From the IMG/VR virus record IMGVR_UViG_3300020020_000050, positions 1-48,783 of that record: a DNA stretch of 48,783 bases. One strand, 5' to 3'. Source of the DNA: a virus. A program made the translations under genes and the position numbers. Below the pieces are notes generated by a model that worked only from the letters and a program-made list of their open reading frames with translations, ran no database searches and was not told the DNA's origin. The number at the start of each line of letters is the position of its first letter. The stretch's first letter is position 1. Below, in pieces: positions 472 to 39,883 of the stretch.

Positions 472-476
472 ATCTG

Positions 477-511
477 TGCTATACTAGCGGCACACCAACA
501 GAAAGCGCACC
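477..511 (+). promoter_or_regulatory. Early promoter/leader cassette 1 (no palindrome)
   Basis: Extended -10 TGC-TATACT (477-485) followed by the conserved leader CACACCAACAGAAAG and ATG at 512. This copy lacks the GTTA-N5-TAAC palindrome; the terminator at 439-471 occupies that position instead. Confidence 0.75.
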
Positions 512-709
512 ATGAACCAACTGAACCTCTATCGTACAAAAACCATCGGCGAACTTGAGTACATCGTGCGCGATGCAGGCGAAGCCGCCGCCGCCATGCG
601 CGGCCTGGACGACAAGGCCGAGTGCAAGTATCTCGATCAAGTCAATGACGCCTGCACCGTCTTATATGAGCGCAGGGTCAAGGGCACGCAACAGCACGTT
701 ATCGCTTAA
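512..709 (+). CDS. Small early phage protein, unknown function
   Basis: A 65-residue acidic/basic mixed protein, predicted mostly helical, with no recognisable motif. The ATG lies at the end of the conserved leader that precedes most early genes, which fixes the start. It is alone downstream of cassette 1. Its 3' end overlaps the last codons of the oppositely oriented exported-protein gene by 4 bases, so the two are convergent without a terminator between them. Confidence 0.75.
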   Translation: MNQLNLYRTKTIGELEYIVRDAGEAAAAMRGLDDKAECKYLDQVNDACTVLYERRVKGTQQHVIA

Positions 710-1230
710 CGCGTGCAATTAACAGCGCTGGTCGGCACTACGCCGCCAGTCGTTGCCGCAGTGGTGCAAGTCGTCGTCAGCACAGTCTGACCGGCTTGCT
801 GCACCGTGAGCGTCACCGACGTGAATTGAATGTCGGTGATCGTCTCGGTCCAATTCGCGTTAGGACAATCCGGCGCACCTGGGATGTTCGCAGCCGGTGG
901 CGTCGTCGTGACGCTGAAGCCGACGTTCCCGTTCTTGAACTGTTCATCAGGAATCGCCACGGAGCCCGAGAGCGTCACCGGCTGCGGCACCTGACCGGGC
1001 GGCTGATTCTGGCCGCTCGGGTTCGTGCATGTCGCGCTGATGGTGCCCGTCGCCGATAGCGTGACAACGACATCACCTTCACCCAGGCCCGCGAGCGAGC
1101 CCGTCGCCGAGATCGACAACCCGTTATCAATGAGCGTCGGGTTTCGATTCTGCTTGAAATGCACGCTCGCAGCGAGCACCGAAGCGGCCATTAGCGAAGC
1201 TGTGAGAAGGGTTAGCGCTGACTTCATCAT
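706..1230 (-). CDS. Putative exported protein (moron-like)
   Basis: 174 residues, the only minus-strand gene in the left block. The start at 1230 is chosen because AAAGGAAA lies 8 bases upstream and the N-terminus is a clear Sec signal peptide (MMKSALTLLTASLMAASVLAAS). The mature part is beta-rich with Thr/Val repeats and five Cys (TCTNPSGQNQPPGQ, DCPN, TTTC, NCTR), like small secreted bacterial proteins of unknown function. It has its own sigma70-type promoter and a canonical Shine-Dalgarno, unlike the neighbouring early genes. This fits an independently expressed accessory gene, perhaps altering the host envelope; that role is inference. Confidence 0.8.
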   Translation of the reverse strand: MMKSALTLLTASLMAASVLAASVHFKQNRNPTLIDNGLSISATGSLAGLGEGDVVVTLSATGTISATCTNPSGQNQPPGQVPQPVTLSGSVAIPDEQFKNGNVGFSVTTTPPAANIPGAPDCPNANWTETITDIQFTSVTLTVQQAGQTVLTTTCTTAATTGGVVPTSAVNCTR

Positions 1231-1275
1231 GATGCATTTCCTTTGTTGAGTAGAACGGCAGAAAGCCGCACGCGA

Positions 1276-1305
1276 ACAATAGACCAAAAAATTGTAACAG
1301 TGCAA
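1276..1305 (-). promoter_or_regulatory. Sigma70-type promoter for the exported-protein gene
   Basis: On the minus strand, TTGCAC (1300-1305) and TATTGT (1276-1281) are separated by 18 bases, about 45 bases upstream of the ATG at 1230. It is back-to-back with cassette 2 on the other strand. Confidence 0.55.
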
Positions 1306-1321
1306 ATATTTTCGATGAGGC

Positions 1322-1384
1322 TTGCGTTACGCGATAACGGCGGTATATAATTCCTCATCGCAACGAATTAACCGAAAGACAGAA
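1322..1384 (+). promoter_or_regulatory. Early promoter/leader cassette 2
   Basis: TTGCGT (1322-1327), palindrome CGTTA-CGCGA-TAACG (1325-1339), TATAAT (1346-1351), then a leader ending AACCGAAAGACAGAA before ATG 1385. An outer inverted repeat CGATGAGG (1313-1320) / CCTCATCG (1353-1360) flanks the whole promoter. Confidence 0.8.
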
Positions 1385-1582
1385 ATGAACAAGATCAGCA
1401 AAAACTCCCTCACGATGACCCTTGGCACCGCCGCTGACATGGTCGCCCGCGCCGACAAGTTCGACGCAAATCAACTGGCTCGCGCCCGCGTCGTCGTCGC
1501 CTACTGGACCGCTCTGCGTGCCAAGCAAGCCCGCGCAAAGGCCGCGAAAAATAATTTTGCAGGTGCTTGCGTTACGCGCTAA
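1385..1582 (+). CDS. Small Ala/Arg-rich early protein
   Basis: 65 residues, starting at the ATG that ends the conserved leader of cassette 2. The middle and C-terminal parts form a basic helix (ARARVVVAYWTALRAKQARA). The last residues (AGACVTR) and the TAA stop are encoded by the -35/palindrome of cassette 3, so the gene runs into the next promoter. No family is recognised. Confidence 0.7.
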   Translation: MNKISKNSLTMTLGTAADMVARADKFDANQLARARVVVAYWTALRAKQARAKAAKNNFAGACVTR

Positions 1583-1622
1583 CACTGGTATATAATTCAT
1601 TCACACCAACCGAAAGACAGAA
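1567..1622 (+). promoter_or_regulatory. Early promoter/leader cassette 3
   Basis: TTGCGT (1567-1572), degenerate palindrome CGTTA-CGCGC-TAACA, TATAAT (1591-1596), leader CACACCAACCGAAAGACAGAA, ATG 1623. The TAAC half supplies the TAA stop codon (1580-1582) of the upstream gene. Confidence 0.8.
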
Positions 1623-1913
1623 ATGCAAATCGCTAACACCATCCTCGCGCAACTCGGCGGCAACCGCTTCATCGCCATGACCGGCGCAAAGAATTTCGTC
1701 GGCACCGAGAACGCTCTGCACTTCCACATTCCCGGCCGCAAGATCAACTCGGTTGTGATTCGCCTGGACGCCACCGACACCTACACTGTCATGTTCAACA
1801 AGCGCACGAACATGGGCGTGAACATCAAGAGCGTTTCGAGCGCGACGATGGTCTACGCTGACAAACTGCGCGAAGTGTTCACCGAGCACACCGGCCTTTA
1901 CACCTCCCTCTGA
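1623..1913 (+). CDS. Conserved phage protein (LGGNRFIAMTGAKNF family)
   Basis: 96 residues. The N-terminal motif LGGNRFIAMTGAKNFVG and the C-terminal VYADKLREVFTEHTGLYTSL match a small protein family I recall from many phages and some plasmids of Gram-negative bacteria, at full length; no function is known to me. It is the first gene of a pair with 1924-2163, ten bases downstream, both behind cassette 3. Confidence 0.85.
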   Translation: MQIANTILAQLGGNRFIAMTGAKNFVGTENALHFHIPGRKINSVVIRLDATDTYTVMFNKRTNMGVNIKSVSSATMVYADKLREVFTEHTGLYTSL

Positions 1914-1923
1914 AAGAAAGAAC

Positions 1924-2163
1924 ATGAAACGCGTCGACATCAAATTCACCGTGGAGGGACTCGGCGAGTTCCCTCTCGACATGCTGCGCTACGACCGCTG
2001 CTTTCCGCGCACCGGCATGGACTGTGACAGCATCACGTACAAGGGCGAGCGTCGACAAGTTACGCTCGTTGCGCTTAACCGTGATTCCTATTTGTGGAAA
2101 CCGACCTATGGCCGATGGGAATCATTCGGATGGAATGTTGTCGAGGTTGAAGTCATCGAATAA
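1924..2163 (+). CDS. Conserved small phage protein
   Basis: 79 residues with FPLDMLRYDRCFP near the N-terminus and WKPTYGRWESFGW near the C-terminus, a pattern I associate with small phage proteins of unknown function that often sit in early-gene blocks. It is preceded by GAAAGAA as a weak ribosome binding site ten bases after the preceding stop, so co-transcription with the upstream gene is expected. Confidence 0.8.
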   Translation: MKRVDIKFTVEGLGEFPLDMLRYDRCFPRTGMDCDSITYKGERRQVTLVALNRDSYLWKPTYGRWESFGWNVVEVEVIE

Positions 2164-2167
2164 GTTG

Positions 2168-2202
2168 TGCTATACTAGCGGCACACCAACAGAAAGACAG
2201 AA
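2168..2202 (+). promoter_or_regulatory. Early promoter/leader cassette 4 (no palindrome)
   Basis: Extended -10 TGC-TATACT (to 2176), then AGCGGCACACCAACAGAAAGACAGAA and ATG 2203. The -10 to leader stretch is the same as in cassette 1 apart from the last few bases before the start codon, and like cassette 1 it lacks the palindrome. Confidence 0.75.
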
Positions 2203-2457
2203 ATGAAATCACTTGAACAAAAAGAAGAAGCACGCTGGATGCGCGGCATCAATCGCGACATCGAGAAGCACGACAAGATCAGCAAGCTCGAAGACAAGAT
2301 CATCGCGTCTTGCATCATCGGCACCCTCATGCGCGAAGGCAAGATCGTGCATTACATCAACCTGACGGACCGCAAAGGACGCTATACCGGCAAGATCAAG
2401 ACCGGCACCGAAGGCGACTTGATGTCCTACCTGATCCGTAACAGGTACGTGCAATGA
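2203..2457 (+). CDS. Small early protein, unknown function
   Basis: 84 residues; the N-terminal 40 are strongly charged and helical (KEEARWMRGINRDIEKHDKISKLEDK), followed by a more beta-like C-terminal half. Start fixed by the leader of cassette 4. Its stop overlaps the ATG of the KOW-like gene (ATGA at 2454-2457), so translation of the two is coupled. No family recognised. Confidence 0.75.
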   Translation: MKSLEQKEEARWMRGINRDIEKHDKISKLEDKIIASCIIGTLMREGKIVHYINLTDRKGRYTGKIKTGTEGDLMSYLIRNRYVQ

Positions 2458-2639
2458 ACAAGCTCGTGAAAGTGGCCGCAGGCCATTACAAGGGCACGCA
2501 CGGCATCGTGCGTAACGTGTTCGACGGCAGCGGTGCACCTCACGTGCGCAACGCTCGGGCGAAGTGGCTCGTGACGCTGAACGTCGGCGGCTCGTTCTTC
2601 GTGCCATCCCTGGCGCGGGCTCGGGAGTCCATCGCATAA
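2454..2639 (+). CDS. Small KOW-motif-like protein
   Basis: 61 residues. VKVAAGHYKGTHGIVRNV resembles a KOW motif (V-x-GxxKGxxGxV), the short beta-hairpin found in ribosomal proteins and NusG-type factors; a role in RNA or ribosome binding is inference. It is coupled to the upstream gene by a 4-base overlap and has no promoter of its own. It ends just before cassette 5. Confidence 0.7.
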   Translation: MNKLVKVAAGHYKGTHGIVRNVFDGSGAPHVRNARAKWLVTLNVGGSFFVPSLARARESIA

Positions 2640-2655
2640 TTATTTTCATTTGCTG

Positions 2656-2717
2656 TTGCGTTACGCGATAACGTCGTGCTATACTTCGTCATCGTCAACG
2701 CAAACAGAAAGCAGCAA
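2656..2717 (+). promoter_or_regulatory. Early promoter/leader cassette 5
   Basis: TTGCGT (2656-2661), palindrome CGTTA-CGCGA-TAACG (2659-2673), extended -10 TGC-TATACT (2680-2685), leader ending AACAGAAAGCAGCAA, ATG 2718. Confidence 0.8.
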
Positions 2718-2990
2718 ATGAAAGTCTTCACATTCAACCCCACCACCGGCCGTCGTGGCGAACAAATCGCTGACCTCGTTGTGCCTTCTTCAACCCGTCG
2801 CACCTACGATGTCGCCTGCAAGTTTCCCGCTCACGGTGCCGACGCCGAGTGGCAAGTCATCACCGAAGCGAAGAACCTCAAAGGCCAAGCGATGTCGTTC
2901 GACGTGCCGGTGTGCTTCTGCCTGGGCAAGTGGACCGCAGGCACCGACACGACTTGGCAATGGTGTGTTCTGATGCCCGCAGCAAAATAA
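2718..2990 (+). CDS. Small early protein, unknown function
   Basis: 90 residues beginning MKVFTFNPTTGRRGEQI. The start at 2718, not the in-frame ATG at 2676, is chosen because the latter lies inside the promoter. A beta-rich protein with a C-terminal CFCLGKWTAGTDTTWQW stretch. Cassette 6 follows directly after the stop. Confidence 0.75.
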   Translation: MKVFTFNPTTGRRGEQIADLVVPSSTRRTYDVACKFPAHGADAEWQVITEAKNLKGQAMSFDVPVCFCLGKWTAGTDTTWQWCVLMPAAK

Positions 2991-3002
2991 AAGAAAGATA
3001 AC

Positions 3003-3067
3003 GCACCGTTACGCTGTGACGGTGCTATAATTCCTCATCGCAACGAATTTAACCCAGAAAGCACGAA
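3003..3067 (+). promoter_or_regulatory. Early promoter/leader cassette 6
   Basis: Palindrome GCACCGTTA-CGCTG-TGACGGTGC (3003-3025, 8 of 9 pairs), TATAAT (3026-3031), leader with CTCATCGCAACGAATTT and CCAGAAAGCACGAA, ATG 3068. Confidence 0.8.
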
Positions 3068-3406
3068 ATGACACCCGCACAAATCCGCACCATTGCCCGC
3101 ATCACCGCACGCGCCGACGCTCAGAGCCGCTTCTTGACCACCGAAGACACCGACTACATTGACGGCCCGCTCGTCAGCGAAGTGCGCGGCCTCGCGACTC
3201 ACAGCGTGTTGCTGATCATCCACAACAGCACACCCGAGCGCAAATGGTTTCAGAAATCGCGCAGTGCGTTTGTCGTCATCGGTGTGCGCGGTGGCGTGCG
3301 CGTCACTGAAGCTGACCTCACCGGCTTTAGTCTGCACACGTTCACAATGCGTGCCATCAAGGCAAAGCTCGCAGCCCGCGCACGTCGCGAGAAGGCCGCA
3401 GCATGA
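3068..3406 (+). CDS. Small basic early protein
   Basis: 112 residues, first of three overlapping genes behind cassette 6. The middle is beta-rich (SVLLIIHNST ... SAFVVIGVRGGVRVTEADL) and the C-terminus a very basic helix (RAIKAKLAARARREKAAA), which suggests nucleic-acid contact; that is inference. The stop overlaps the next ATG (ATGA at 3403). Confidence 0.75.
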   Translation: MTPAQIRTIARITARADAQSRFLTTEDTDYIDGPLVSEVRGLATHSVLLIIHNSTPERKWFQKSRSAFVVIGVRGGVRVTEADLTGFSLHTFTMRAIKAKLAARARREKAAA

Positions 3407-3606
3407 GAGTCACTGTTGAAGACTACGCGAAGCAACTCGGCGTGAGCCGATCTACAGCATTCCGCCGCCTCACGAAGCTCGTGCAAGAAGGCAAGGCGGT
3501 GTGCTATACCGGATACGTGCAACACAGCCCGAGCAACTTCTCGGATGTGCGCATGCCGCCATCCGGCCGCATCAACTACTACAAGCTACTAGAGGCCGCA
3601 CAATGA
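3403..3606 (+). CDS. Small helix-turn-helix DNA-binding protein
   Basis: 67 residues. Residues 4-30 (TVEDYAKQLGVSRSTAFRRLTKLVQEGK) form a classic helix-turn-helix of the winged type, followed by a short beta hairpin. It is the clearest transcription-regulator candidate in the early block, and so a candidate for the protein that reads the repeated promoter palindrome; that link is inference. ATGA overlaps join it to both neighbours. Confidence 0.8.
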   Translation: MRVTVEDYAKQLGVSRSTAFRRLTKLVQEGKAVCYTGYVQHSPSNFSDVRMPPSGRINYYKLLEAAQ

Positions 3607-3785
3607 AGAACAAACAGTTTGCCGTCGTGAAGCGCTACGATCAGTTTCGCGGCCCGAAGGGCGGGCTCGTGTGCCTTGGATGGGATGTCGTCGACGTGCG
3701 CGGCAATATCGTGCTGCGACGCCTGCCTAGCGCGAAGCTCGCACGTCGCCTGCGCGATAGCCTGAACGCGACGAGCAAGGTGTAA
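3603..3785 (+). CDS. Small basic early protein
   Basis: 60 residues, very basic, beta-rich N-terminal half and a basic C-terminal helix (SAKLARRLRDSLNATSK). The start at 3603 overlaps the upstream stop (ATGA), which is preferred to the in-frame upstream ATG at 3501 lying within the HTH gene. No family recognised. Confidence 0.75.
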   Translation: MKNKQFAVVKRYDQFRGPKGGLVCLGWDVVDVRGNIVLRRLPSAKLARRLRDSLNATSKV

Positions 3786-3794
3786 CGGTTTGTT

Positions 3795-3867
3795 CGTTAG
3801 CGCGTAACGGCAGAATCTCGCATATAATTCATTCATCGCAACGAACTAACCCGGAAAGAGAAACATC
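3795..3867 (+). promoter_or_regulatory. Early promoter/leader cassette 7 (variant)
   Basis: Palindrome CGTTA-GCGCG-TAACG (3795-3809), TATAAT (3823-3828) and a long leader to ATG 3868. The palindrome to -10 spacing is longer than in most copies, and the -10 is preceded by CGCA instead of TGC. Confidence 0.7.
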
Positions 3868-4251
3868 ATGGCCTACGTCGACCAAGTCAAGAAAGCAAAG
3901 ATCGCCGCCGCACTCAAACCCGTCATGCCTAAGGGCTGGAAATATTCGCTGGCTGTGAACAACCATTCGACCATCGTTCTGAACATCGCTTCGGCACCCG
4001 TCGACATCATCGCCGCCCTGGTCCCGAGCGAATACCGCAAGCCTGCCGAAATGACCTATGCGCAGATTTACCACAAGCGCATCGACGAATGCTTCACCGA
4101 TGCCGAGATCACCGCAACTTTCGAAAAGATCGCCGACGCTCTGAACCTCGACAACTTCGACAAGTCGGACAGCATGACCGATTATTTCCACGTCGGTCAC
4201 TACGTCGACATCAACGTCGGCAAATGGAATAAACCCTTCACCGTCAAATAA
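3868..4251 (+). CDS. Conserved phage protein of unknown function
   Basis: 127 residues. The stretch KGWKYSLAVNNHSTIVLNI followed by PVDII resembles a widely distributed phage protein family in Gram-negative hosts (SLAVRNHSTLVLNI-type signature). No catalytic motif is visible. It stands alone between cassettes 7 and 8, with the A-rich stretch typical of cassette borders right after its stop. Confidence 0.8.
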   Translation: MAYVDQVKKAKIAAALKPVMPKGWKYSLAVNNHSTIVLNIASAPVDIIAALVPSEYRKPAEMTYAQIYHKRIDECFTDAEITATFEKIADALNLDNFDKSDSMTDYFHVGHYVDINVGKWNKPFTVK

Positions 4252-4262
4252 AAATAAAGGTG

Positions 4263-4318
4263 CACCGTTACTCGATAACGGTGTGCTATAATTCAGTCAC
4301 ACCAACAGAAAGCAGCAA
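4263..4318 (+). promoter_or_regulatory. Early promoter/leader cassette 8
   Basis: Perfect 8-bp palindrome CACCGTTA-CTCGA-TAACGGTG (4263-4283), extended -10 TGC-TATAAT (4287-4292), leader CACACCAACAGAAAGCAGCAA, ATG 4319. Confidence 0.85.
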
Positions 4319-4522
4319 ATGAAATTCGAAATCGGCCAAACCTACACCACCCGCTCTGCCTGCGATCACGATTGCATCTTCGCGATCACCGTCGCCAAGC
4401 GCACCGCGAAGACGATCACGACCACCAAGGGCAAGACCCTGCGCATCAGCGAGTACGAAGGCCGCGAGCAAGTCAAGCCCTATGGCACGTACAGCATGTG
4501 CCCCATCATTTCCGCCAAGTAA
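4319..4522 (+). CDS. Small early protein, unknown function
   Basis: 67 residues, beta-rich (KFEIGQTYTTRSACDHDCIFAI), Thr/Lys-rich centre. Start fixed by the leader of cassette 8. First gene of an apparent three-gene unit with 4548-4727 and 4727-5128. The N-terminal FEIGQ-type opening is shared with the small protein at 6316-6492 (FEIGQVVKG), possibly a distant paralogue. Confidence 0.75.
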   Translation: MKFEIGQTYTTRSACDHDCIFAITVAKRTAKTITTTKGKTLRISEYEGREQVKPYGTYSMCPIISAK

Positions 4523-4547
4523 TCCACCACCAACCGAAAGGAAAAGA

Positions 4548-4727
4548 ATGCCCGAATATTTCGTATGCGAACCCGGACCGATGGGAGGTTGTCTCATCGT
4601 CTGGGTCGGCGGCACCCTGGAAGAAGCAAAACAATTCATCACCCGCAGAACATCCCTGTATAACTCTAGGGACAAGAAGCACGGCAACCCTGCCGAGTAT
4701 TTCATCTACCGTCAAGAAAGCAACTAA
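4548..4727 (+). CDS. Small early protein, unknown function
   Basis: 59 residues (MPEYFVCEPGPMGGCLIVW...). The start at 4548 has AAAGGAAAAGA upstream and follows a leader like the cassette leader (CACCAACCGAAAGG) without a -10, so only the translation-start half of the cassette is present. The stop shares one base with the next start. Confidence 0.7.
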   Translation: MPEYFVCEPGPMGGCLIVWVGGTLEEAKQFITRRTSLYNSRDKKHGNPAEYFIYRQESN

Positions 4728-5128
4728 TGGCATTCAAGCTCACCAAAGAACAAACCGCCGCACGCGACGCGCTAGCGGGTCGCCTGGAAGAAGCACGCGA
4801 GAAGCTCGACTCCGCAGTCGTCGACTTCAATGACACGATCACAGCCGCACGCGGTGTGCTGCAAGAAGAGATCGACGCCTATAACGGCTTGCTCAGTGAG
4901 GTGAAGAGCTTCGCCGATGATGTCGCGCAGGATTGGGAGAACGATTTCGAAGAGAAGTCCGAGCGCTGGCAGGATGGCGACACCGGCCAAGCTGTGCGCG
5001 AACTGATCGAAGCATGGCAGAACGTCGACTTCGAAGGCGTCGACATCGACACGCCTGATCCTGAGGTGAGCTTCGATGCCGAAGTGCACAGCGAGCTTCT
5101 GACCGATCTGCCGACCGAGAAAGAATAA
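4727..5128 (+). CDS. Acidic coiled-coil early protein
   Basis: 133 residues, strongly acidic. Residues 5-70 have a heptad-like pattern (ARDALAGRLEEAREKLDSAV ... EEIDAYNGLLSEVKSF) expected to form a coiled coil; the C-terminal third is acidic with DTPDPEVSFD. It may be a structural or DNA-mimic-type protein; nothing more can be said. Stop-start overlap with the upstream gene. Confidence 0.75.
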   Translation: MAFKLTKEQTAARDALAGRLEEAREKLDSAVVDFNDTITAARGVLQEEIDAYNGLLSEVKSFADDVAQDWENDFEEKSERWQDGDTGQAVRELIEAWQNVDFEGVDIDTPDPEVSFDAEVHSELLTDLPTEKE

Positions 5129-5136
5129 AAGATTCT

Positions 5137-5194
5137 GCACGCGTTACGCAATAACGCGTGCTATAATCTGGGCTCACCAACAGAAAGCAGCAAA
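5137..5194 (+). promoter_or_regulatory. Early promoter/leader cassette 9
   Basis: Perfect 10-bp palindrome GCACGCGTTA-CGCAA-TAACGCGTGC (5137-5161), TATAAT (5162-5167), leader CTCACCAACAGAAAGCAGC, ATG 5195. Both outer arms differ from the common GCACCG/CGGTGC form and still pair. Confidence 0.85.
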
Positions 5195-5338
5195 ATGAAA
5201 ACCTGGAAAATCACCGGAACCCGTCGCGGTCAACTCGTCACCGTCACCGTGCAGGCCGCAAACCATAACGACGCAATCCGCGCCGGAAGTCATGCACCGC
5301 ACATGCTCGTCGTGCGCGATGTGGTGCTCGTGTCATAA
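5195..5338 (+). CDS. Very small early protein
   Basis: 47 residues (MKTWKITGTRRGQLVTVTVQ...). The start is fixed by the leader of cassette 9. The pattern of beta strands followed by AANHNDAIRAGS resembles small phage proteins with a beta-beta-alpha unit; the family is not certain. Followed after 19 bases by 5358-5822. Confidence 0.7.
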   Translation: MKTWKITGTRRGQLVTVTVQAANHNDAIRAGSHAPHMLVVRDVVLVS

Positions 5339-5357
5339 AACAACCGAAAGAAAGCAA

Positions 5358-5822
5358 ATGAAATTCCGTATCAGCAAAGATGAAAGAAGCAACGCGGGCA
5401 AGTTGCTCGACGTGACGCACGTTGTCCAATTCGAGAATGGCCGCGTGTCGGTGCCGGGTCGCATCAGCGGCAGACAGGCGACATGGGAGGGCAGTCTAGG
5501 CACGAGCGTGACCTTCGCCGACGCAGAGGCAGAGGCATGGTTGCTCGCTCAAAATATCAACTGGAAAGCGCATGCAGCATGGCTCGACATAACACGTGCA
5601 GAACGCGAGGCACGTGCTGCCAAGGAACGAGCAGACCGCGAACGTCGACAAGCAGAGGCACGCAAAGAACTCGCCATCATCCAGGCCGCACAAGTCAAGT
5701 ACGCTACGGTTGTCGAACACGGCATGATGACCTTCGACGGTACACCACAGATCGCGAGCGTCCCAGGTGAAGAAGGCCGCAAATGGGTGTCAGCATGGGT
5801 ACTCGTGGAGGTGCCGTCATGA
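5358..5822 (+). CDS. Early protein with charged helical segment
   Basis: 154 residues. The start at 5358 is preceded by AACCGAAAGAAAGCAA, matching the leader rule. A beta-rich N-terminal part is followed by a long charged helix at about residues 75-118 (REARAAKERADRERRQAEARK), then a C-terminal beta segment. Second gene behind cassette 9; its stop overlaps the next ATG (ATGA at 5819). Confidence 0.75.
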   Translation: MKFRISKDERSNAGKLLDVTHVVQFENGRVSVPGRISGRQATWEGSLGTSVTFADAEAEAWLLAQNINWKAHAAWLDITRAEREARAAKERADRERRQAEARKELAIIQAAQVKYATVVEHGMMTFDGTPQIASVPGEEGRKWVSAWVLVEVPS

Positions 5823-6028
5823 GTTGGCACCGGCCGAAGTACACGAGCAGCCGCTACGTTAACGGCAACTACTACATCCAGAAGGATCACTCGCGACTGT
5901 GCGACGTGTGGCGTGTTTACTACAATAACAAAGAAATTGCGCAATCAACGACGCTACGCGCCGGAAAAGCAGCCGCCGCAGAACATTTCGGGAAAGTAGT
6001 TGCAGCGTTACGCGAGAACGGGTTATAA
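5819..6028 (+). CDS. Small early protein whose stop lies in a -10 box
   Basis: 69 residues, basic and aromatic (MSWHRPKYTSSRYVNGNYYI). Start overlaps the upstream stop. The gene ends GAG AAC GGG TTA TAA, the last six bases of which overlap the TATAAT -10 of cassette 10, so coding and promoter sequence coincide. No family recognised. Confidence 0.75.
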   Translation: MSWHRPKYTSSRYVNGNYYIQKDHSRLCDVWRVYYNNKEIAQSTTLRAGKAAAAEHFGKVVAALRENGL

Positions 6029-6055
6029 TTCGTTCACACCAACCGAAAGACGAAA
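6004..6055 (+). promoter_or_regulatory. Early promoter/leader cassette 10
   Basis: Palindrome CGTTA-CGCGA-GAACG (6006-6020, one mismatch), TATAAT (6024-6029), leader CACACCAACCGAAAGACGAAA, ATG 6056. The element is inside the 3' end of the upstream coding region. Confidence 0.8.
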
Positions 6056-6250
6056 ATGACCGACAAAGAATACGTGATCCGCGCAGCCCACATGAAGAAG
6101 CTGTCCCTCATCAAACCCGAGAAGGGTCAGCGCATCATTCTCGCGCACGACTTCAACAAGAAGGACGCTCACGGCGTCTACCCTTGCGTCATCGACGCTA
6201 CCACCTGGGCAGAAGCCCGAGCCCAAATCAACAAGTTCTATCAGGACTAA
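6056..6250 (+). CDS. Small early protein, unknown function
   Basis: 64 residues, basic, with an alternating strand/helix pattern (GQRIILAHDFNKKDAHGVYP). Single gene between cassettes 10 and 11; start fixed by the leader. No recognised family. Confidence 0.75.
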   Translation: MTDKEYVIRAAHMKKLSLIKPEKGQRIILAHDFNKKDAHGVYPCVIDATTWAEARAQINKFYQD

Positions 6251-6259
6251 AAATACTTG

Positions 6260-6315
6260 GCACCGTTACTCGATAACGGTGCTATAATCGAATCTCACCC
6301 ACAGAAAGAAATGAA
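6260..6315 (+). promoter_or_regulatory. Early promoter/leader cassette 11
   Basis: Perfect 9-bp palindrome GCACCGTTA-CTCGA-TAACGGTGC (6260-6282), TATAAT (6283-6288), leader CTCACCCACAGAAAGAA. The first ATG (6311) is followed at once by TGA in frame; the working start is the next ATG at 6316. Confidence 0.85.
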
Positions 6316-6492
6316 ATGAACTCCTTCGAAATCGGTCAAGTCGTCAAGGGCATCGTTTGCGGCACCTTCATCATCCTGCGCTTTCGCACCATCGGCAGCG
6401 AGCAGTACGCTCAAGTGCAATGCTACGACCCGGAAAGCGGCCGGACCATGCGCGGTGAAATGGCCTTGCCGCTCGACGCACTGAAGGCCTAA
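6316..6492 (+). CDS. Very small early protein
   Basis: 58 residues, MNSFEIGQVVKGIVCGTFII... ending LPLDALKA. Beta-rich with a compact small-barrel look (GQVVKGIVCGTFIILRFRTIG). Placed behind cassette 11, with an ATGAAATG double start of which the first codes only for two residues. The opening is like that of the protein at 4319. Confidence 0.75.
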   Translation: MNSFEIGQVVKGIVCGTFIILRFRTIGSEQYAQVQCYDPESGRTMRGEMALPLDALKA

Positions 6493-6501
6493 AAGAAAAA
6501 C

Positions 6502-6536
6502 GCACCGTTACCCGATAACGGTGCTATAATCTGCAC
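6502..6536 (+). promoter_or_regulatory. Early promoter cassette 12 (leaderless variant)
   Basis: Perfect 9-bp palindrome GCACCGTTA-CCCGA-TAACGGTGC (6502-6524), TATAAT (6525-6530) and then only CTGCAC before ATG 6537. The expected transcription start falls on or next to the ATG; the usual leader and AGAAAG are missing. Confidence 0.85.
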
Positions 6537-6782
6537 ATGATGAATGCAAACCAAACCCGCGAAGCAGTAGCAGCAGCCGCCCAGGCGCACGGCTTCGAAC
6601 TCGTCGCATCCGACCTGCGTCGCGGCCTGTTCTTCGTGCGCAAGGGCACTGAGGTTCGCTCGCTCGGATCGGGCGCACTGTATCGCAACATGCCCGCGTC
6701 GATGATCGCTGGCGTCGTCGCACTGACAGTGCGCGAGGGCAATCGGATCGACACTATCAAAGGATCGAGGTACTTCGCATGA
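6537..6782 (+). CDS. Small early protein, probably from a leaderless mRNA
   Basis: 81 residues (MMNANQTREAVAAAAQAHGFELVASDLRRGLFFVRKG...). The ATG is seven bases after the -10 hexamer, so the message would have little or no 5' leader; no Shine-Dalgarno is visible. The fold suggestion (helix, then strands) is too weak to name. First of a four-gene coupled run ending at 7812. Confidence 0.75.
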   Translation: MMNANQTREAVAAAAQAHGFELVASDLRRGLFFVRKGTEVRSLGSGALYRNMPASMIAGVVALTVREGNRIDTIKGSRYFA

Positions 6783-6958
6783 ACAACACCGCACAAACAA
6801 CCGCAGAGCGTCAATCGCTCTATCGAGCACGACGCACTATCGAGGGCAAGACCGAAGTGCGCGGCATCTACCTCTTGCCCGAGCAACACGCACTGCTGCG
6901 AGCACTGGCTCGCGATCTGAACAACACACCAAAGGAAAAACATGAACACGATGAATGA
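6779..6958 (+). CDS. Small protein, possibly ribbon-helix-helix type
   Basis: 59 residues. The start overlaps the upstream stop (ATGA at 6779). The segment ARRTIEGKTEVRGIYLLPEQHALLRALARDL has the strand-helix-helix layout of small ribbon-helix-helix DNA-binding proteins, where a short strand precedes LPxxxxxLLRxLA; DNA binding is inferred only. The 3' end overlaps the next gene by 17 bases. Confidence 0.7.
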   Translation: MNNTAQTTAERQSLYRARRTIEGKTEVRGIYLLPEQHALLRALARDLNNTPKEKHEHDE

Positions 6959-7214
6959 ACACGTCACGAGCACGAAGAACATGATCTTCATCCCGGCGCA
7001 CATGGCTCTTACATTCGTTGATGCTCCAATGATCGGCGTCAAGCTGGGCGAAAAAGGCTTCTGGCCTATCTTTCATCCGGACCATGAAGAACTGAACGGA
7101 CGACCCGCAAGCGATACCGTGCTGCGGTCCGCTGTGCAGGCGTCGATGTTCGGATGGGATGCGCCTTGCGCACGTGAAGCAATCGAGTGGCTCGAAAATG
7201 CGCCGCCCACGTGA
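6942..7214 (+). CDS. Small early protein, unknown function
   Basis: 90 residues. AAAGGAAAAAC upstream of 6942 gives a good ribosome binding site inside the preceding gene. Mixed alpha/beta with no clear motif (GVKLGEKGFWPIFHPDHEEL). Its stop overlaps the start of the metallopeptidase gene by 17 bases, so it belongs to the same translated unit. Confidence 0.7.
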   Translation: MNTMNEHVTSTKNMIFIPAHMALTFVDAPMIGVKLGEKGFWPIFHPDHEELNGRPASDTVLRSAVQASMFGWDAPCAREAIEWLENAPPT

Positions 7215-7812
7215 TAACCAACGCAGCAAGGTCTACAGGTGGCAGGACCGCGTGCGCCTGCCCTGTGAGACGTTCAAGACCCTGGAAGAGTGCGAAGCGT
7301 ACCTGAGGCCGATCTGGCGTGCAGAGCGCGGCCGATACGGGCACGCACGTGTACCCTTGCCGATCATCGAGCGGCCCGCCTGGGGGCAGCGTAGCGCGAT
7401 TGCGCACGAAGATCACCGCATCACCCTCCCGCGATGGGCTCGCAAGCCTGACACGATCCTGCACGAGGCCGCGCACCGGCTGACACCGGCCGACGAAGGA
7501 CATGGCCCGCGATTCGTCGGTGTGCTGATCGGCCTGATGTGTCGGCACCTGGGATATGACGCTGACACGCTCATGGCTGCGGCCGACGCAATGGGCGTGA
7601 AGTATCACGTGCGCAGCAACGGCAGCGTGCCGGTGATTGCTCGCGGTCCCTCTGCTGCCGTCGCACGAGCGATACGCGACGAAGGCCCGATGACTGAAAT
7701 GGACCTCGCGTGCTGGTGTGACCTGACCTACTTGCAAGTACGCGGTGCCGCTATGCATTTGATCAAGACTGGCCGAGCCCGATGGCTCAGAAAGAAATTA
7801 ATTCTGATTTAG
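7198..7812 (+). CDS. Zincin-type metallopeptidase-like protein
   Basis: 204 residues from the ATG at 7198. Residues 89-93 are HEAAH, followed by a third histidine at 102 in EGHGPRF, the HExxH-x8-H arrangement of zinc metallopeptidase-like phage proteins (SprT/zincin type). Residues about 150-204 (RAIRDEGPMTEMDLACWCDL ... VRGAAMHLIKTGRARWL) look like a winged-helix domain. A peptidase fused to a DNA-binding domain would fit a cleaver of a host or phage regulator; this is inference. Last gene of the unit behind cassette 12. Confidence 0.75.
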   Translation: MRRPRDNQRSKVYRWQDRVRLPCETFKTLEECEAYLRPIWRAERGRYGHARVPLPIIERPAWGQRSAIAHEDHRITLPRWARKPDTILHEAAHRLTPADEGHGPRFVGVLIGLMCRHLGYDADTLMAAADAMGVKYHVRSNGSVPVIARGPSAAVARAIRDEGPMTEMDLACWCDLTYLQVRGAAMHLIKTGRARWLRKKLILI

Positions 7813-7868
7813 TTGCGTTACGCGGAAACGCGGTGCTATAATTCGGTCACACCAACCGAAAGACGAAC
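7813..7868 (+). promoter_or_regulatory. Early promoter/leader cassette 13
   Basis: TTGCGT (7813-7818), palindrome GCGTTA-CGCGG-AAACGC (7815-7831, one mismatch), extended -10 TGC-TATAAT (7837-7842), leader CACACCAACCGAAAGACGAAC, ATG 7869. Confidence 0.8.
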
Positions 7869-8198
7869 ATGAACGCACTTCAAGCCGCTTGCCCCAAATG
7901 CAATCCCCTGTATCCTGAACTGGATGAAGACGGAATCCCTTACACGTGTTATGCATGCTGCGACACCGGCATCGTGTCGAAGGATTACGCTGACGCTTAC
8001 CTGCGTGACCTCGACGACGCTTGCGAGTATCGCGGTATGCGTCCTGTCGTGAACGGCAAGCATCAGCGCCTTGACGGTGACGAATACGATAGCTGGTACG
8101 TCGCCGAGCCGCTGCTTCCCGCGTCGCTCTTCCCGAAGGCCCGCCGCGCCGCGCCGGTTTACGCCGCTCTTGAGTTGGACGACGATCTTCCCTTCTGA
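7869..8198 (+). CDS. Cys-rich, probably zinc-binding early protein
   Basis: 109 residues, acidic. C8xxC11 and C27xxC30C31 (ACPKCNP ... TCYACCDTG) form a likely zinc ribbon at the N-terminus, followed by an acidic region ending LELDDDLPF. The start is fixed by the leader of cassette 13. It may bind a nucleic acid or protein partner; no family recognised. Confidence 0.75.
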   Translation: MNALQAACPKCNPLYPELDEDGIPYTCYACCDTGIVSKDYADAYLRDLDDACEYRGMRPVVNGKHQRLDGDEYDSWYVAEPLLPASLFPKARRAAPVYAALELDDDLPF

Positions 8199-8208
8199 AA
8201 ATAAATTT

Positions 8209-8272
8209 CGCCGTTACGCAATAACGGCGATTTTCTTGATATACTCTAGGCTTCAGCAACCGAAAGACAGAA
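8209..8272 (+). promoter_or_regulatory. Early promoter/leader cassette 14 (variant)
   Basis: Perfect 8-bp palindrome CGCCGTTA-CGCAA-TAACGGCG (8209-8229), then ATTTTCTTGA and TATACT (8240-8245), leader CAGCAACCGAAAGACAGAA, ATG 8273. The -10 is about 10 bases farther from the palindrome than usual and the hairpin is followed by a short T run, so it may also terminate. Confidence 0.75.
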
Positions 8273-8581
8273 ATGAAAACCGCAAAGATCACGAAAATCC
8301 TGGGCACCATCAGCGGCGACACCGTCGAAGTGGTGATGTATATCGACGGCGAATACGCAGGCCGCGCCGTCACCGACGGTGACACTGGCGCGAAGATGGC
8401 GGCTGCATGGGTTGCCGAAGATCACGCTGCACTCGTGAAAGAAGTTGCCCGCTGCACACGCTACATCGCGCATCTGCGAGCGTTCAACGATCCGATGCTT
8501 CACGCCTACGAAGATCGCCGCGCCGAAGCCCGCGCCGCTATCATGACCCTCTTGATCGACGGTGGCGAGGTGGCAGCATGA
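8273..8581 (+). CDS. Small early protein, unknown function
   Basis: 102 residues: an N-terminal beta-rich part (KITKILGTISGDTVEVVMYIDG) and a helical C-terminal half (AALVKEVARCTRYIAHLRAF). Start fixed by the cassette 14 leader; ATGA overlap with the next gene. Confidence 0.75.
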   Translation: MKTAKITKILGTISGDTVEVVMYIDGEYAGRAVTDGDTGAKMAAAWVAEDHAALVKEVARCTRYIAHLRAFNDPMLHAYEDRRAEARAAIMTLLIDGGEVAA

Positions 8582-8823
8582 CAATGCCCTTCAATGCTGG
8601 CCTGCTGCGCAAGCAAGCCGCGAACACCCTGGCCCGCGTCGAGGGCATCGCAGACGAAGCCAGCAAGCCCCACCGGGCTAGCCTACCGGCGCACATCCTG
8701 TGCAGCCTGGAACTCGGTGCCGTCGCTCAGTGGATCGCCAATCAGGACGCCAGCGTCGACACGACGCGTGTCGTCGAGATCGCGCAACAAGCTGTTGCAA
8801 ATATTCATCGCAAATATTCTTGA
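8578..8823 (+). CDS. Small helical early protein
   Basis: 81 residues, mostly helical (LLRKQAANTLARVEGIADEA; LGAVAQWIANQ). The start at 8578 overlaps the upstream stop. Second gene of the cassette 14 unit. No family recognised. Confidence 0.75.
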   Translation: MTMPFNAGLLRKQAANTLARVEGIADEASKPHRASLPAHILCSLELGAVAQWIANQDASVDTTRVVEIAQQAVANIHRKYS

Positions 8824-8831
8824 TCCTGCCG

Positions 8832-8883
8832 CCCGTTACGCGATAACGGGTTATACTAGCGGCTCACCAACAGAAAGACAGAA
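8832..8883 (+). promoter_or_regulatory. Early promoter/leader cassette 15
   Basis: Perfect 7-bp palindrome CCCGTTA-CGCGA-TAACGGG (8832-8850), TATACT (8852-8857), leader AGCGGCTCACCAACAGAAAG then ACAGAA, ATG 8884. The outer arm bases differ from the common form but still pair. Confidence 0.8.
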
Positions 8884-9129
8884 ATGCAAGACCTCAACAA
8901 GTTCGCCTTCAACAAACAAACCGGCCTGCTGTCCGCTAGCCTCTCCGACCTGGGCATGCGCAAACTGCCGACCGAAGTTTCGATCCGCTCGCACCTCACC
9001 GGGCACGTCATCAAGTTCGTGTACGACAATGAAGCCGCCGAGCGTCATGAATTTTGGGATGGCGAAATGGCCGAATACGTGCCGACCACCGCATGTAAAG
9101 TCAAGAAGCTCGCGATCATCGCAGCCTAA
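8884..9129 (+). CDS. Small early protein, unknown function
   Basis: 81 residues, beta-rich (VSIRSHLTGHVIKFVYDNEA; FWDGEMAEYVP). Single gene between cassettes 15 and 16, with start fixed by the leader. No recognised family. Confidence 0.75.
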   Translation: MQDLNKFAFNKQTGLLSASLSDLGMRKLPTEVSIRSHLTGHVIKFVYDNEAAERHEFWDGEMAEYVPTTACKVKKLAIIAA

Positions 9130-9138
9130 AAATAAGTT

Positions 9139-9193
9139 GCACCGTTACGGAATAACGGTGCTATAATCAAGCCTCACCAACAGAAAGACAGAA
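9139..9193 (+). promoter_or_regulatory. Early promoter/leader cassette 16
   Basis: Perfect 9-bp palindrome GCACCGTTA-CGGAA-TAACGGTGC (9139-9161), TATAAT (9162-9167), leader CTCACCAACAGAAAGACAG, ATG 9194. Confidence 0.85.
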
Positions 9194-9433
9194 ATGACCA
9201 CGATCTACACTCCCGAACAAACTTCTTCCATCTTCTTCGCGCTGACCGAAGCCGAAATGGGCAACAACGGCTACGCGAACGTGCCCACGCTCGACCCTGT
9301 CGTGATCGAAGCCCTGAAGATCGCCGGTTTCCGCGTCATCGCAGCACGCGACCTCTTCGGCGTCGCATGCTCACGCGTGTTCACGCCGAAGGGCTGGGCA
9401 GCAGCGCTGGAAGAGACTTACCTCTACCCCTAA
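9194..9433 (+). CDS. Small early protein, unknown function
   Basis: 79 residues, acidic, with an alpha/beta pattern (VVIEALKIAGFRVIAARDLFG). Single gene between cassettes 16 and 17; the start is fixed by the leader. No recognised family. Confidence 0.75.
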   Translation: MTTIYTPEQTSSIFFALTEAEMGNNGYANVPTLDPVVIEALKIAGFRVIAARDLFGVACSRVFTPKGWAAALEETYLYP

Positions 9434-9441
9434 AATAAAGT

Positions 9442-9496
9442 GCACCGTTACGCTGTAGCGGTGCTATAATTCAGGCTCACCAACAGAAAGACAGAA
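9442..9496 (+). promoter_or_regulatory. Early promoter/leader cassette 17
   Basis: Palindrome GCACCGTTA-CGCTG-TAGCGGTGC (9442-9464, one mismatch), TATAAT (9465-9470), leader CTCACCAACAGAAAGACAG, ATG 9497. Last copy of the array. Confidence 0.85.
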
Positions 9497-9745
9497 ATGA
9501 CACACTACTACGAAGAAACGCAAGAGCAGAAAGACGCGTTCTGGTCCTGGGCAGTCGGCGAAGATCAAGCCCGCGCCGCTGTGAAGGCAGTGCTCGCCGC
9601 ACGCGCCGCTAAGCGCACCGCTGCCGGTGTCATGCGCTGCGGCCGGTGCATGGGTGCCGGTTGGATCAGGTGCTTCTCGCACGTCGCAGCCGGTGTGTGC
9701 TTCGCGTGCGACGGCAAGGGCACCGTCTCGGGCCTGGACATCTAA
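9497..9745 (+). CDS. Small protein with DnaJ-type zinc-finger motif
   Basis: 82 residues. After a helical N-terminus, residues 48-77 contain CGRCMGAGWIRC and CFACDGKG, the CxxCxGxG repeats of the DnaJ central zinc-binding domain. In DnaJ these bind unfolded protein; here a single pair of repeats suggests a zinc-stabilised protein-interaction module. First of four closely linked genes behind cassette 17. Confidence 0.8.
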   Translation: MTHYYEETQEQKDAFWSWAVGEDQARAAVKAVLAARAAKRTAAGVMRCGRCMGAGWIRCFSHVAAGVCFACDGKGTVSGLDI

Positions 9746-9945: not shown

Positions 9946-10171
9946 TTACGCAGGATGGCCGAAGGACATGCTAGGCGAGATTTTCGATGGCATGATGAAG
10001 AACATCGCCGAGCGTCCCTATTGGGTCGGGATGGGCGAGAAACAAGCATTCGACGCTGTGCGGTCCGGCCGCATGTCGTTCGACGATTTCGAGAAGTGGT
10101 CCGCGTACCGCTTCGAAGAGAAAGAAGAAGCAAAGCGCTTCATTCACACCGGCAGGAGCAATCGCACATGA
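9938..10171 (+). CDS. Small helical early protein
   Basis: 77 residues, helical and charged (MLGEIFDGMMKNIAERPYWV; FEEKEEAKRFIHTGR). AAGGGG lies about 8 bases upstream of the ATG. ATGA overlap with the next gene at 10168. No recognised family. Confidence 0.7.
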   Translation: MADYAGWPKDMLGEIFDGMMKNIAERPYWVGMGEKQAFDAVRSGRMSFDDFEKWSAYRFEEKEEAKRFIHTGRSNRT

Positions 10172-10356
10172 GATACGTCACGAACAACCTCGCGCTCTAT
10201 CGCATGAGCGAACGCAACTACCGGCGCATGCTGCGCTTGATCGCGAACGATGAGCCTATGAGCGTCGATAGCTTCGGTGTGTTCCTGGGCACCATCGACG
10301 CCGAGATCAGCCGCCTAGAGCCCGATGACGCACGCCTGAAGCTCAAAGAAGGCTAA
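10168..10356 (+). CDS. Small helical early protein, end of early block
   Basis: 62 residues (MRYVTNNLALYRMSERNYRRML...), predicted all-helical. Last plus-strand gene of the left block. Its TAA (10354-10356) overlaps the stop of the convergent minus-strand gene, with no terminator between them. Confidence 0.7.
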   Translation: MRYVTNNLALYRMSERNYRRMLRLIANDEPMSVDSFGVFLGTIDAEISRLEPDDARLKLKEG

Positions 10357-10523
10357 CGCTTGCGCTTCGCCGCCGCTGCCTTGCGATGCACAGCATAGGT
10401 AAGTTGAACCGGGTTGTGCAGTATTGGCGTGATGTTACGGCACTCGCCAAACACCACAGGCAGAAGCCTGTCCGCATTCGGGCCTATGCCGCCCATCTTC
10501 GAGGTCGACTTCTTCAGCGACAT
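10353..10523 (-). CDS. Chimeric 56-residue basic protein containing a tail-protein fragment
   Basis: 56 residues. The N-terminus MSLKKSTSK and C-terminus YAVHRKAAAAKRKR match those of its upstream neighbour (MPLKKSTSK ... YAVKRRAAAKKAKR), but the middle (GGIGPNADRLLPVVFGECRN then ITPIL) matches the giant tail protein of this phage (GGTGPNASRLVPITFGECHN then ITPVL). Over 79 ungapped bases (10421-10499 against 41379-41457) about 70% agree by eye, same frame. It looks like a paralogue whose core was replaced by a foreign tail-gene piece. Whether it is still expressed is unknown. Confidence 0.65.
   Translation of the reverse strand: MSLKKSTSKMGGIGPNADRLLPVVFGECRNITPILHNPVQLTYAVHRKAAAAKRKR
10421..10499 (-). 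repeat. Fragment homologous to the tail-tip gene
   Basis: 79 bases that align without gaps, at about 70% identity by eye, to 41379-41457 inside the 2058-residue tail protein gene, on the same strand and in the same reading frame. The mate is not identical, so the donor may be a related phage and not this genome. Confidence 0.7.
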
Positions 10524-10527
10524 GACA

Positions 10528-10671
10528 CTAACGCTTGGCCTTCTTCGCCGCTGCCCTGCGCTTCACCGCGTAGGCAATGGCGACGGCTTGTTTCACCGGC
10601 TTGCCGCTCTTGATTTCGGCCTTGATGTTCTTCGCGAAGGCTTTCTTCGATGTGGATTTCTTGAGCGGCAT
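10528..10671 (-). CDS. Small basic Lys/Ala-rich phage protein (DUF6496-like)
   Basis: 47 residues, MPLKKSTSKKAFAKNIKAEI ... AVAIAYAVKRRAAAKKAKR. This matches a common small phage protein type (PLKKGxSKKxxxxNIKxxxxxGKPxKQAVAIA), which I associate with DUF6496. The start at 10671 overlaps the stop of the upstream membrane gene (TAATG). The strong positive charge suggests binding to DNA or RNA; the function is not known. Confidence 0.8.
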   Translation of the reverse strand: MPLKKSTSKKAFAKNIKAEIKSGKPVKQAVAIAYAVKRRAAAKKAKR

Positions 10672-10814
10672 TACGCTACCCTCCCCACTAGTTGCGCAGC
10701 AACGAGACACGCGAGGCCCGCCGCCGTGAGGTTCAAGCGGCCCGTCGTCACGCCAATTGCCGCAACGATAAACAGGATCAGCGCTGCGACTAAAAACAAA
10801 AGAGAGATTGTCAT
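10671..10814 (-). CDS. Small two-helix membrane protein
   Basis: 47 residues: MTISLLFLVAALILFIVAAI, then GVTTGRLNLTAAG and a second hydrophobic stretch. GGAGGTGG lies 4 bases upstream of the ATG, a strong Shine-Dalgarno. This is the look of a very common 45-50-residue membrane protein near phage structural genes. It is coupled to the DUF6496-like gene by a TAATG overlap. Confidence 0.75.
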   Translation of the reverse strand: MTISLLFLVAALILFIVAAIGVTTGRLNLTAAGLACLVAAQLVGRVA

Positions 10815-11026
10815 GATCCACCTCCGTAAACGCGTGAACGATACTTCACACGATTCTCGCCTGGGCGCTTCACCGGCCTTGCGTTCGCCTTCTCAAGCCG
10901 ATCTACTTGCTCGCGTAGTTTCGAGGCTAAATGAGTGTCAGCATGGTCTTGCTTGTCCAACTTCTTCATCATGTCAGTGAAGTCGGATGCATCTTCGATT
11001 GCACGATTCAACATTTCCATAATCAT
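10811..11026 (-). CDS. Small helical protein downstream of head gene
   Basis: 71 residues, charged and helical (NRAIEDASDFTDMMKKLDKQ), basic C-terminus ending GGGS. It overlaps the stop of the Mu F-like head gene at its start (ATGA) and the start of the membrane-protein gene at its end. Probably a late small protein of unknown role. Confidence 0.75.
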   Translation of the reverse strand: MIMEMLNRAIEDASDFTDMMKKLDKQDHADTHLASKLREQVDRLEKANARPVKRPGENRVKYRSRVYGGGS

Positions 11027-16137: not shown

Positions 16138-16177
16138 AACACCGAGCAACACCGAGCAACACCGAGCAACACCGAGC
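16138..16177. repeat. Four tandem copies of a 10-bp unit
   Basis: AACACCGAGC repeated four times without change. The last copy is also the outer part of a 28-bp inverted repeat. Iterated repeats of this kind beside terS suit a terminase or replication-initiator binding site. Confidence 0.9.
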
Positions 16178-16294
16178 GGAATGACGGAATGACAGAATTT
16201 TCGTCGTTTCCGTTAATCCCTCTATATGCATTCTCTATAGGGGCATTTATAGGAATCGACTATAAAACTGTCATTCTGACATTCTGCCGGTGTT
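16168..16294. repeat. Long imperfect inverted repeat around an AT-rich centre
   Basis: Left arm 16168-16195 (AACACCGAGCGGAATGACGG then AATGACAG), right arm 16268-16294 (CTGTCATTCTGACATTCTGC then CGGTGTT); three mismatches and one gap over 28 positions. The 72-bp centre is AT-rich with its own partial symmetry (CCTCTATATGC / GCATTTATAGG). It fills the 264-bp gap between the helicase gene and terS. Candidate replication origin or pac/cos site. Confidence 0.75.
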
Positions 16295-16300
16295 GTCGAG

Positions 16301-39370: not shown

Positions 39371-39883
39371 CTAGCCTATTTCTTCTATAGCCTTGAGGTC
39401 GACATACTCGATGCCCAAATGAGTTGTGCTGACACGTACCCCACCTGTCATGCGACCATAGACAACCGACGGATGCGATAGATTACTCGGGTAGTCGGTC
39501 ATTTCGATTGTTCTAGTCAAATTCCCTGTGCCTCTAAGCACGATGCCGTGAGTGGGAATGTCCTGTTCTACGAACGACGTAAGCACATACGCTTGTTTCG
39601 CTTCGCTCCATGTTTTGGTATAGGCACCAACTTTCCATGTCACCGGATTATTGGCTGGGATGTCTTTGAGAATTACAGTCAATGTCTCGCGAGTAAGACT
39701 AGCATTGTTGCTAGGTATGATACGCCACGGTGAACCCGGAGGCGTCCTAGTCCATACGGCGACATCAGAAAGCAGTGTGATAGAAATGTTGGCTGCTGCG
39801 GCCTCGTTAGGTGGAGTCACAGCCACAGTACGCGCAGGAGAGCGCCGCATCGTTACGTCTCGTTCATTGACTACATCAGTCAT
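39371..39883 (-). CDS. Tail protein, unknown role
   Basis: 170 residues from ATG 39883, which overlaps the stop of the giant tail gene (TAATG). Beta-rich with a Thr-rich middle (NISITLLSDVAVWTRTPPGS; RGTGNLTRTIEMTDYPSNLS). No recognised family. Probably a tail-tip component. Confidence 0.75.
   Translation of the reverse strand: MTDVVNERDVTMRRSPARTVAVTPPNEAAAANISITLLSDVAVWTRTPPGSPWRIIPSNNASLTRETLTVILKDIPANNPVTWKVGAYTKTWSEAKQAYVLTSFVEQDIPTHGIVLRGTGNLTRTIEMTDYPSNLSHPSVVYGRMTGGVRVSTTHLGIEYVDLKAIEEIG

Follow-up and report, generated by a model that had tools for sequence, protein, structure and literature searches.

How does a phage come to carry a 56-residue open reading frame (ORF) whose two ends resemble the small gene beside it and whose middle resembles part of a tail protein encoded elsewhere in the same genome? 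This question is raised by p56, which lies in a 48,783-bp virus record of a soil phage group; we call this whole stretch of DNA the window. Genes seen in the window include those for the portal, large terminase, primase-helicase, DNA polymerase, endolysin and tape measure as well as tail genes. p56 is the final gene of a minus-strand block that runs from the portal through a Mu F-like head gene to small genes, and this block faces a plus-strand block of small genes. An earlier note on this DNA had read p56 as a duplicate of a small basic-protein gene whose center was replaced by a tail-gene fragment from a related phage; its coordinates, strand relation and alignment were right by ORF call, tblastn and blastn. 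The features discussed here are as follows.

10353–10523, minus strand: p56, a chimeric ORF of 56 aa, MSLKKSTSKMGGIGPNADRLLPVVFGECRNITPILHNPVQLTYAVHRKAAAAKRKR (ORF translation and comparisons)
10528–10671, minus strand: gene for a 47-aa small basic protein, an ordinary member of PHROG 2423 (profile search, E = 5e-19), 4 nt upstream of p56
10168–10356, plus strand: 62-aa gene convergent with p56, the two stop codons overlapping
10497–10523, minus strand: 5′ piece of p56 (MSLKKSTSK), derived from a small gene of PHROG 2423; 26/27 nt as in the small gene of relative L008
10386–10499, minus strand: tail-hub piece of p56, KMGGIGPNADRLLPVVFGECRNITPILHNPVQLTYAVH; 83/114 nt as in the tail gene of relative L038, with the AAG at 10497–10499 common to both parents
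10353–10397, minus strand: 3′ piece of p56, the YAVHRKAAAAKRKR region and stop codon; 39/45 nt as in the small gene of relative L025
39883–46059, minus strand: giant tail gene of 2058 aa whose C-terminal part includes a tail-hub domain; the homologue of the donor, not the donor itself
41344–41454, minus strand: part of the window's tail gene that is homologous to the core of p56 (69/111 nt)

The 3′ piece overlaps the tail-hub piece because the second joint falls within TATGCTGTGCAT/CGC. No terminator-like site was found between p56 and the convergent 62-aa gene, and a role of the p56 ORF as a terminator was rejected on that ground; the window also has no match in Rfam. Ahead of many of the plus-strand small genes (window 476–9515) a cassette is repeated in at least 12 copies, with the palindrome CACCGTTACnCGATAACGGTG at the would-be −35 position, followed by GTGCTATAAT and by CACCAACAGAAAGACAGAAATG, which reaches to the start codon, and from its sequence it looks like a shared operator-promoter-ribosome-site unit. 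An imperfect inverted repeat of 130 nt (73%) lies at 16167–16295, between the terminase and primase-helicase genes.

The ends of p56 resemble the 47-aa neighbor, as the earlier note had claimed: none of 2000 shuffles reached the protein score, and for the DNA of the two ends none of 1000 shuffles did so in either case. The part derived from PHROG 2423 comprises the first 9 and the last 10–14 codons, which give p56 an MPLKKSTSK-like N-terminus and a basic C-terminus, YAVHRKAAA, with H for the K of YAVKRKAAA. Codons 1–9 agree with the window's own 47-aa gene at only 22/27 nt, against 26/27 in L008, and the last 45 nt at 36/45, against 39/45 in L025. Between the ends, 24 codons of the family core of the small gene are replaced by ~37 in-frame tail-hub codons, and the conserved core KPxKQAxAIA is absent. 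The PHROG 2423 profile that finds the neighbor so readily gave no match to p56, and neither Pfam nor NCBIfam has a family for it.

Codons 9–46 derive, by sequence comparison, from a tail-hub gene. This core matches the giant ORF at 39883–46059 with a tblastn E-value of 2.8e-14 (51% over 45 aa), in keeping with the likeness noted earlier, and a blastn search of the window against itself aligned 10420–10500 with 41378–41458 at 74.1% over 81 ungapped nt (E = 6e-7), where about 70% had been judged by eye. Both genes are on the minus strand and the match is in the same frame. An alignment no better than shuffled sequence, named in advance as counter-evidence, is not what was found: the protein score was 133 and the best of 1000 shuffles 53, and the ungapped DNA score was 39 and the best of 200 codon shuffles 19. 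The GECxNITPxL stretch of p56 is homologous to tail-hub proteins of PHROG 8917, a profile that p56 matches weakly (E = 0.037) and that the window's tail gene matches as well. Across codons 10–46 the closest sequence is the L038 tail gene (80/111 nt, versus 69/111 for the window's own), and every column that is invariant across 10 tail sequences is kept in the core. Since the core keeps these columns and resembles L038 more than the tail gene of its own phage, it came from a related tail gene. The differences between p56 and the tail genes fall chiefly at third positions for two of the four tail genes compared and less clearly so for the other two, a pattern that hints at a piece with a past inside a tail gene.

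Both joints are in frame. The first is sharp at codon 9: compared with the L038 tail gene, 5/24 nt agree before it and 83/114 from codon 9 on, and AAG or AAGA is present in both parents. The second lies in TAT GCT GTG CAT / CGC, encoding the residues Y-A-V-H, where TAT and CAT are tail-like and GCT GTG and CGC AAG GCA are small-gene-like. A joint at a Y-x-V/Y-H spot alike in both partners had been noted earlier, and it was located here, with the other at the shared AAG codon. The V-H pair of the second joint is what YQVH-type tail genes have, unlike the nearest ones; as no donor tail gene was found, microhomology there can only be inferred. Abrupt joints between segments with different nearest relatives are as in the mosaicism produced by illegitimate recombination.

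A search with the portal yielded 27 loci from this soil phage group. Outside the carriers of p56, these loci have at most one small gene at the site, uninterrupted and with no hybrid, and the sequence after the small gene varies among relatives, which marks the site as variable. The tail genes collected from the group are ordinary and long, and the parental kinds of gene occur separately in relatives. The single uninterrupted small gene, which the earlier note had advised looking for, and the greater closeness of the core to L038 bear out its account of a duplicate small gene with an exchanged center. No further hybrid turned up when IMG/VR was scanned with patterns for both ends of the small gene; all other full-length MPLKKSTSK genes found there retain a [KR]PxKQAxAI core. 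A widespread 56-aa protein unrelated to tail genes, the other outcome named as counter-evidence, can likewise be set aside, with p56 present only in the window and two sister contigs, namely L004 (the same phage on another contig) and L005 (another strain, from another metagenome, several percent different from the window in places). Searches of annotated phages and plasmids gave no relative of p56 beyond weak chance matches.

Between the window and L005, p56 differs at 1 nt in 171, and this sole change turns the start codon from ATG to GTG, still a start. The surrounding block (10000–10530) is ~99.6% identical and adjoins stretches of 57–85% (10600–11000); judged on the sequences, this identity pattern reads as a recombination mosaic between the strains. 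In L004, at ~5985 (window 10540–10609), 70 bp of the 47-aa gene are missing, which joins the front half of that gene in frame to p56 in an ORF of 82 codons; this deletion is either a real variant or an assembly fault. A peptide-pattern search did not find the donor tail gene in IMG/VR or GTDB genomes; its matches were long tail genes, except for the p56 carriers and one chance-looking stretch (L085). The donor of the core was a related phage outside the collections searched.

The tail identity that the earlier note gave to the giant protein agrees with its predicted structure. The C-terminal 684 residues were modeled (mean pLDDT 78), and the structural matches of this part show a tail-hub fold: the top scores went to T5 pb3 (Z 19.1, 457 residues, 3.4 Å) and, at an equal Z of 19.1, to a tail protein of a Neisseria prophage, ahead of Mu gp44 (Z 16.8) and T4 gp27 (Z 15.0). 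The giant protein is therefore predicted to fold as a hub of the T5 pb3/gp27 type. Searching the sequences of solved structures with an alignment of the hub gave no match. The stretch captured in p56 corresponds to a loop and a few strands near model residues 175–198, part of a domain; p56 holds ~37 residues of a hub region that spans ~500, and the whole gp27-like domain is absent. Modeled alone, p56 has a mean pLDDT of 56 with one hairpin in the same stretch, which, from an alignment of 7 rows, is weak evidence of disorder, and the captured piece is predicted to have no confident fold of its own. Within the giant tail gene there is also an internal duplication of ~670 bp at 71% (43451–44118 and 44306–44973).

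Taken together, these comparisons make it very probable that p56 is a three-piece hybrid of small-gene ends and a tail-hub middle from a related phage. The fuller reading that we prefer, to which we give a probability of roughly two in three, is that this hybrid arose recently by illegitimate recombination and is carried as a young, near-neutral passenger. What lies directly behind the resident PHROG 2423 small gene is another copy of it with an exchanged middle, and to make it, phages of one soil group would have recombined illegitimately in a mixed infection. Copying may have left the small gene, passed through the tail-hub gene and returned to the small gene, with strand switching where the two share a few letters, AAG or AAGA for the first joint and about GCTGTG for the second. 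The order of events may have been duplication first, or the hybrid may have been imported whole. The start of p56 lies 4 nt past the stop of the 47-aa gene and its ribosome site is, by sequence, weak at most, so that p56, if translated at all, is likely to be read by coupling to the 47-aa gene, and at a low level. The product would be a mostly unstructured basic peptide, and the gene, at a variable spot where its operon ends, probably persists as a near-neutral passenger. Because the core of the small family is lost and only part of the hub is present, p56 most likely does neither parent's job. It is probably young and perhaps without any job, and we lean toward a scar or near-neutral ORF rather than a working new protein. 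Phage mosaicism usually becomes visible after selection has purged most joints inside genes. In this light p56 would be a hybrid of two unrelated genes caught early, with its reading frame intact across each joint and its two parental families known, and a case for how new small phage ORFs can arise.

Selection could also explain the kept frame at both joints and the kept conserved tail residues. Alternatively, p56 might be a functional new protein, its hub hairpin and basic tails binding the tail-hub assembly, its own or that of a competitor, and modulating it or poisoning it as a decoy. The retention of all invariant hub residues, the two in-frame joints and the carriage by two strains with only the start codon changed would suit such a role. 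Nevertheless, what was captured is less than a whole hub domain, near-identical copies yield no evidence of selection, the distribution is very narrow and the ribosome site appears weak, and we regard this reading as unlikely. Still more doubtful is its specific form, in which a sub-domain hub hairpin, grafted into a small basic protein, gave rise to a new functional protein that now acts on how the tail hub is assembled in its own phage or in competing ones.

Hardly better or worse placed is the proposal that the core is replaceable and that the basic ends let p56 carry on the function of PHROG 2423. It does retain both of these ends, and its final 13 residues almost equal those of L025. On the other hand, the family core is strongly conserved and gone only in p56, and an intact 47-aa copy adjoins it in the window and in L005, which together make a continued family function improbable. 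An assembly chimera built from reads of two genes would draw on the similarity of the two small genes and on the odd 70-bp deletion at the same place in L004. We consider it very improbable: contigs of two metagenomes (3300020009 and 3300017965) share the joints although their strains differ by several percent nearby, and the core is not a copy of any other window sequence (69/111 nt); its presence in a second strain from another metagenome means that p56 is not an assembly error. Chance or convergence, for which no point was found beyond the shortness of the match (~40 residues), is scarcely credible given 0/1000 shuffles, an in-frame nucleotide match and a shared match to PHROG 8917.

The reading of p56 as a recent recombinant and near-neutral passenger can be set against several known systems. 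The template and variable repeats of diversity-generating retroelements include a short stretch that resembles part of a tail gene elsewhere in the genome, and p56 shares this feature. A template repeat was rejected, however, since the mismatches between core and tail gene are of all kinds and not confined to adenines of one copy; no reverse transcriptase was found among the ten larger window proteins scanned. A broad literature search found nothing specific on chimeric small phage genes. With the small basic proteins of PHROG 2423, whose function is unassigned, p56 shares its end codons and operon position, but it has a tail-hub piece in place of their conserved core. With the tail-hub proteins (the T5 pb3, Mu gp44 and T4 gp27 fold; PHROG 8917) it shares codons 9–46, homologous to a hub-domain stretch of the tail genes of the window and its relatives, although it has a small fraction of the full hub region and no predicted self-standing fold. 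Phage proteins are well known to exchange fragments (Smug et al., 2023; PMC10684548). As in that domain mosaicism, p56 has a fragment in common with otherwise unrelated phage proteins and of contemporary origin. The survey demanded a shared fragment of at least 50 aa (PMC10684548), whereas the fragment in p56 is sub-domain in extent, falls below the survey size at ~37 aa and sits in a tiny gene that is not a tail gene.
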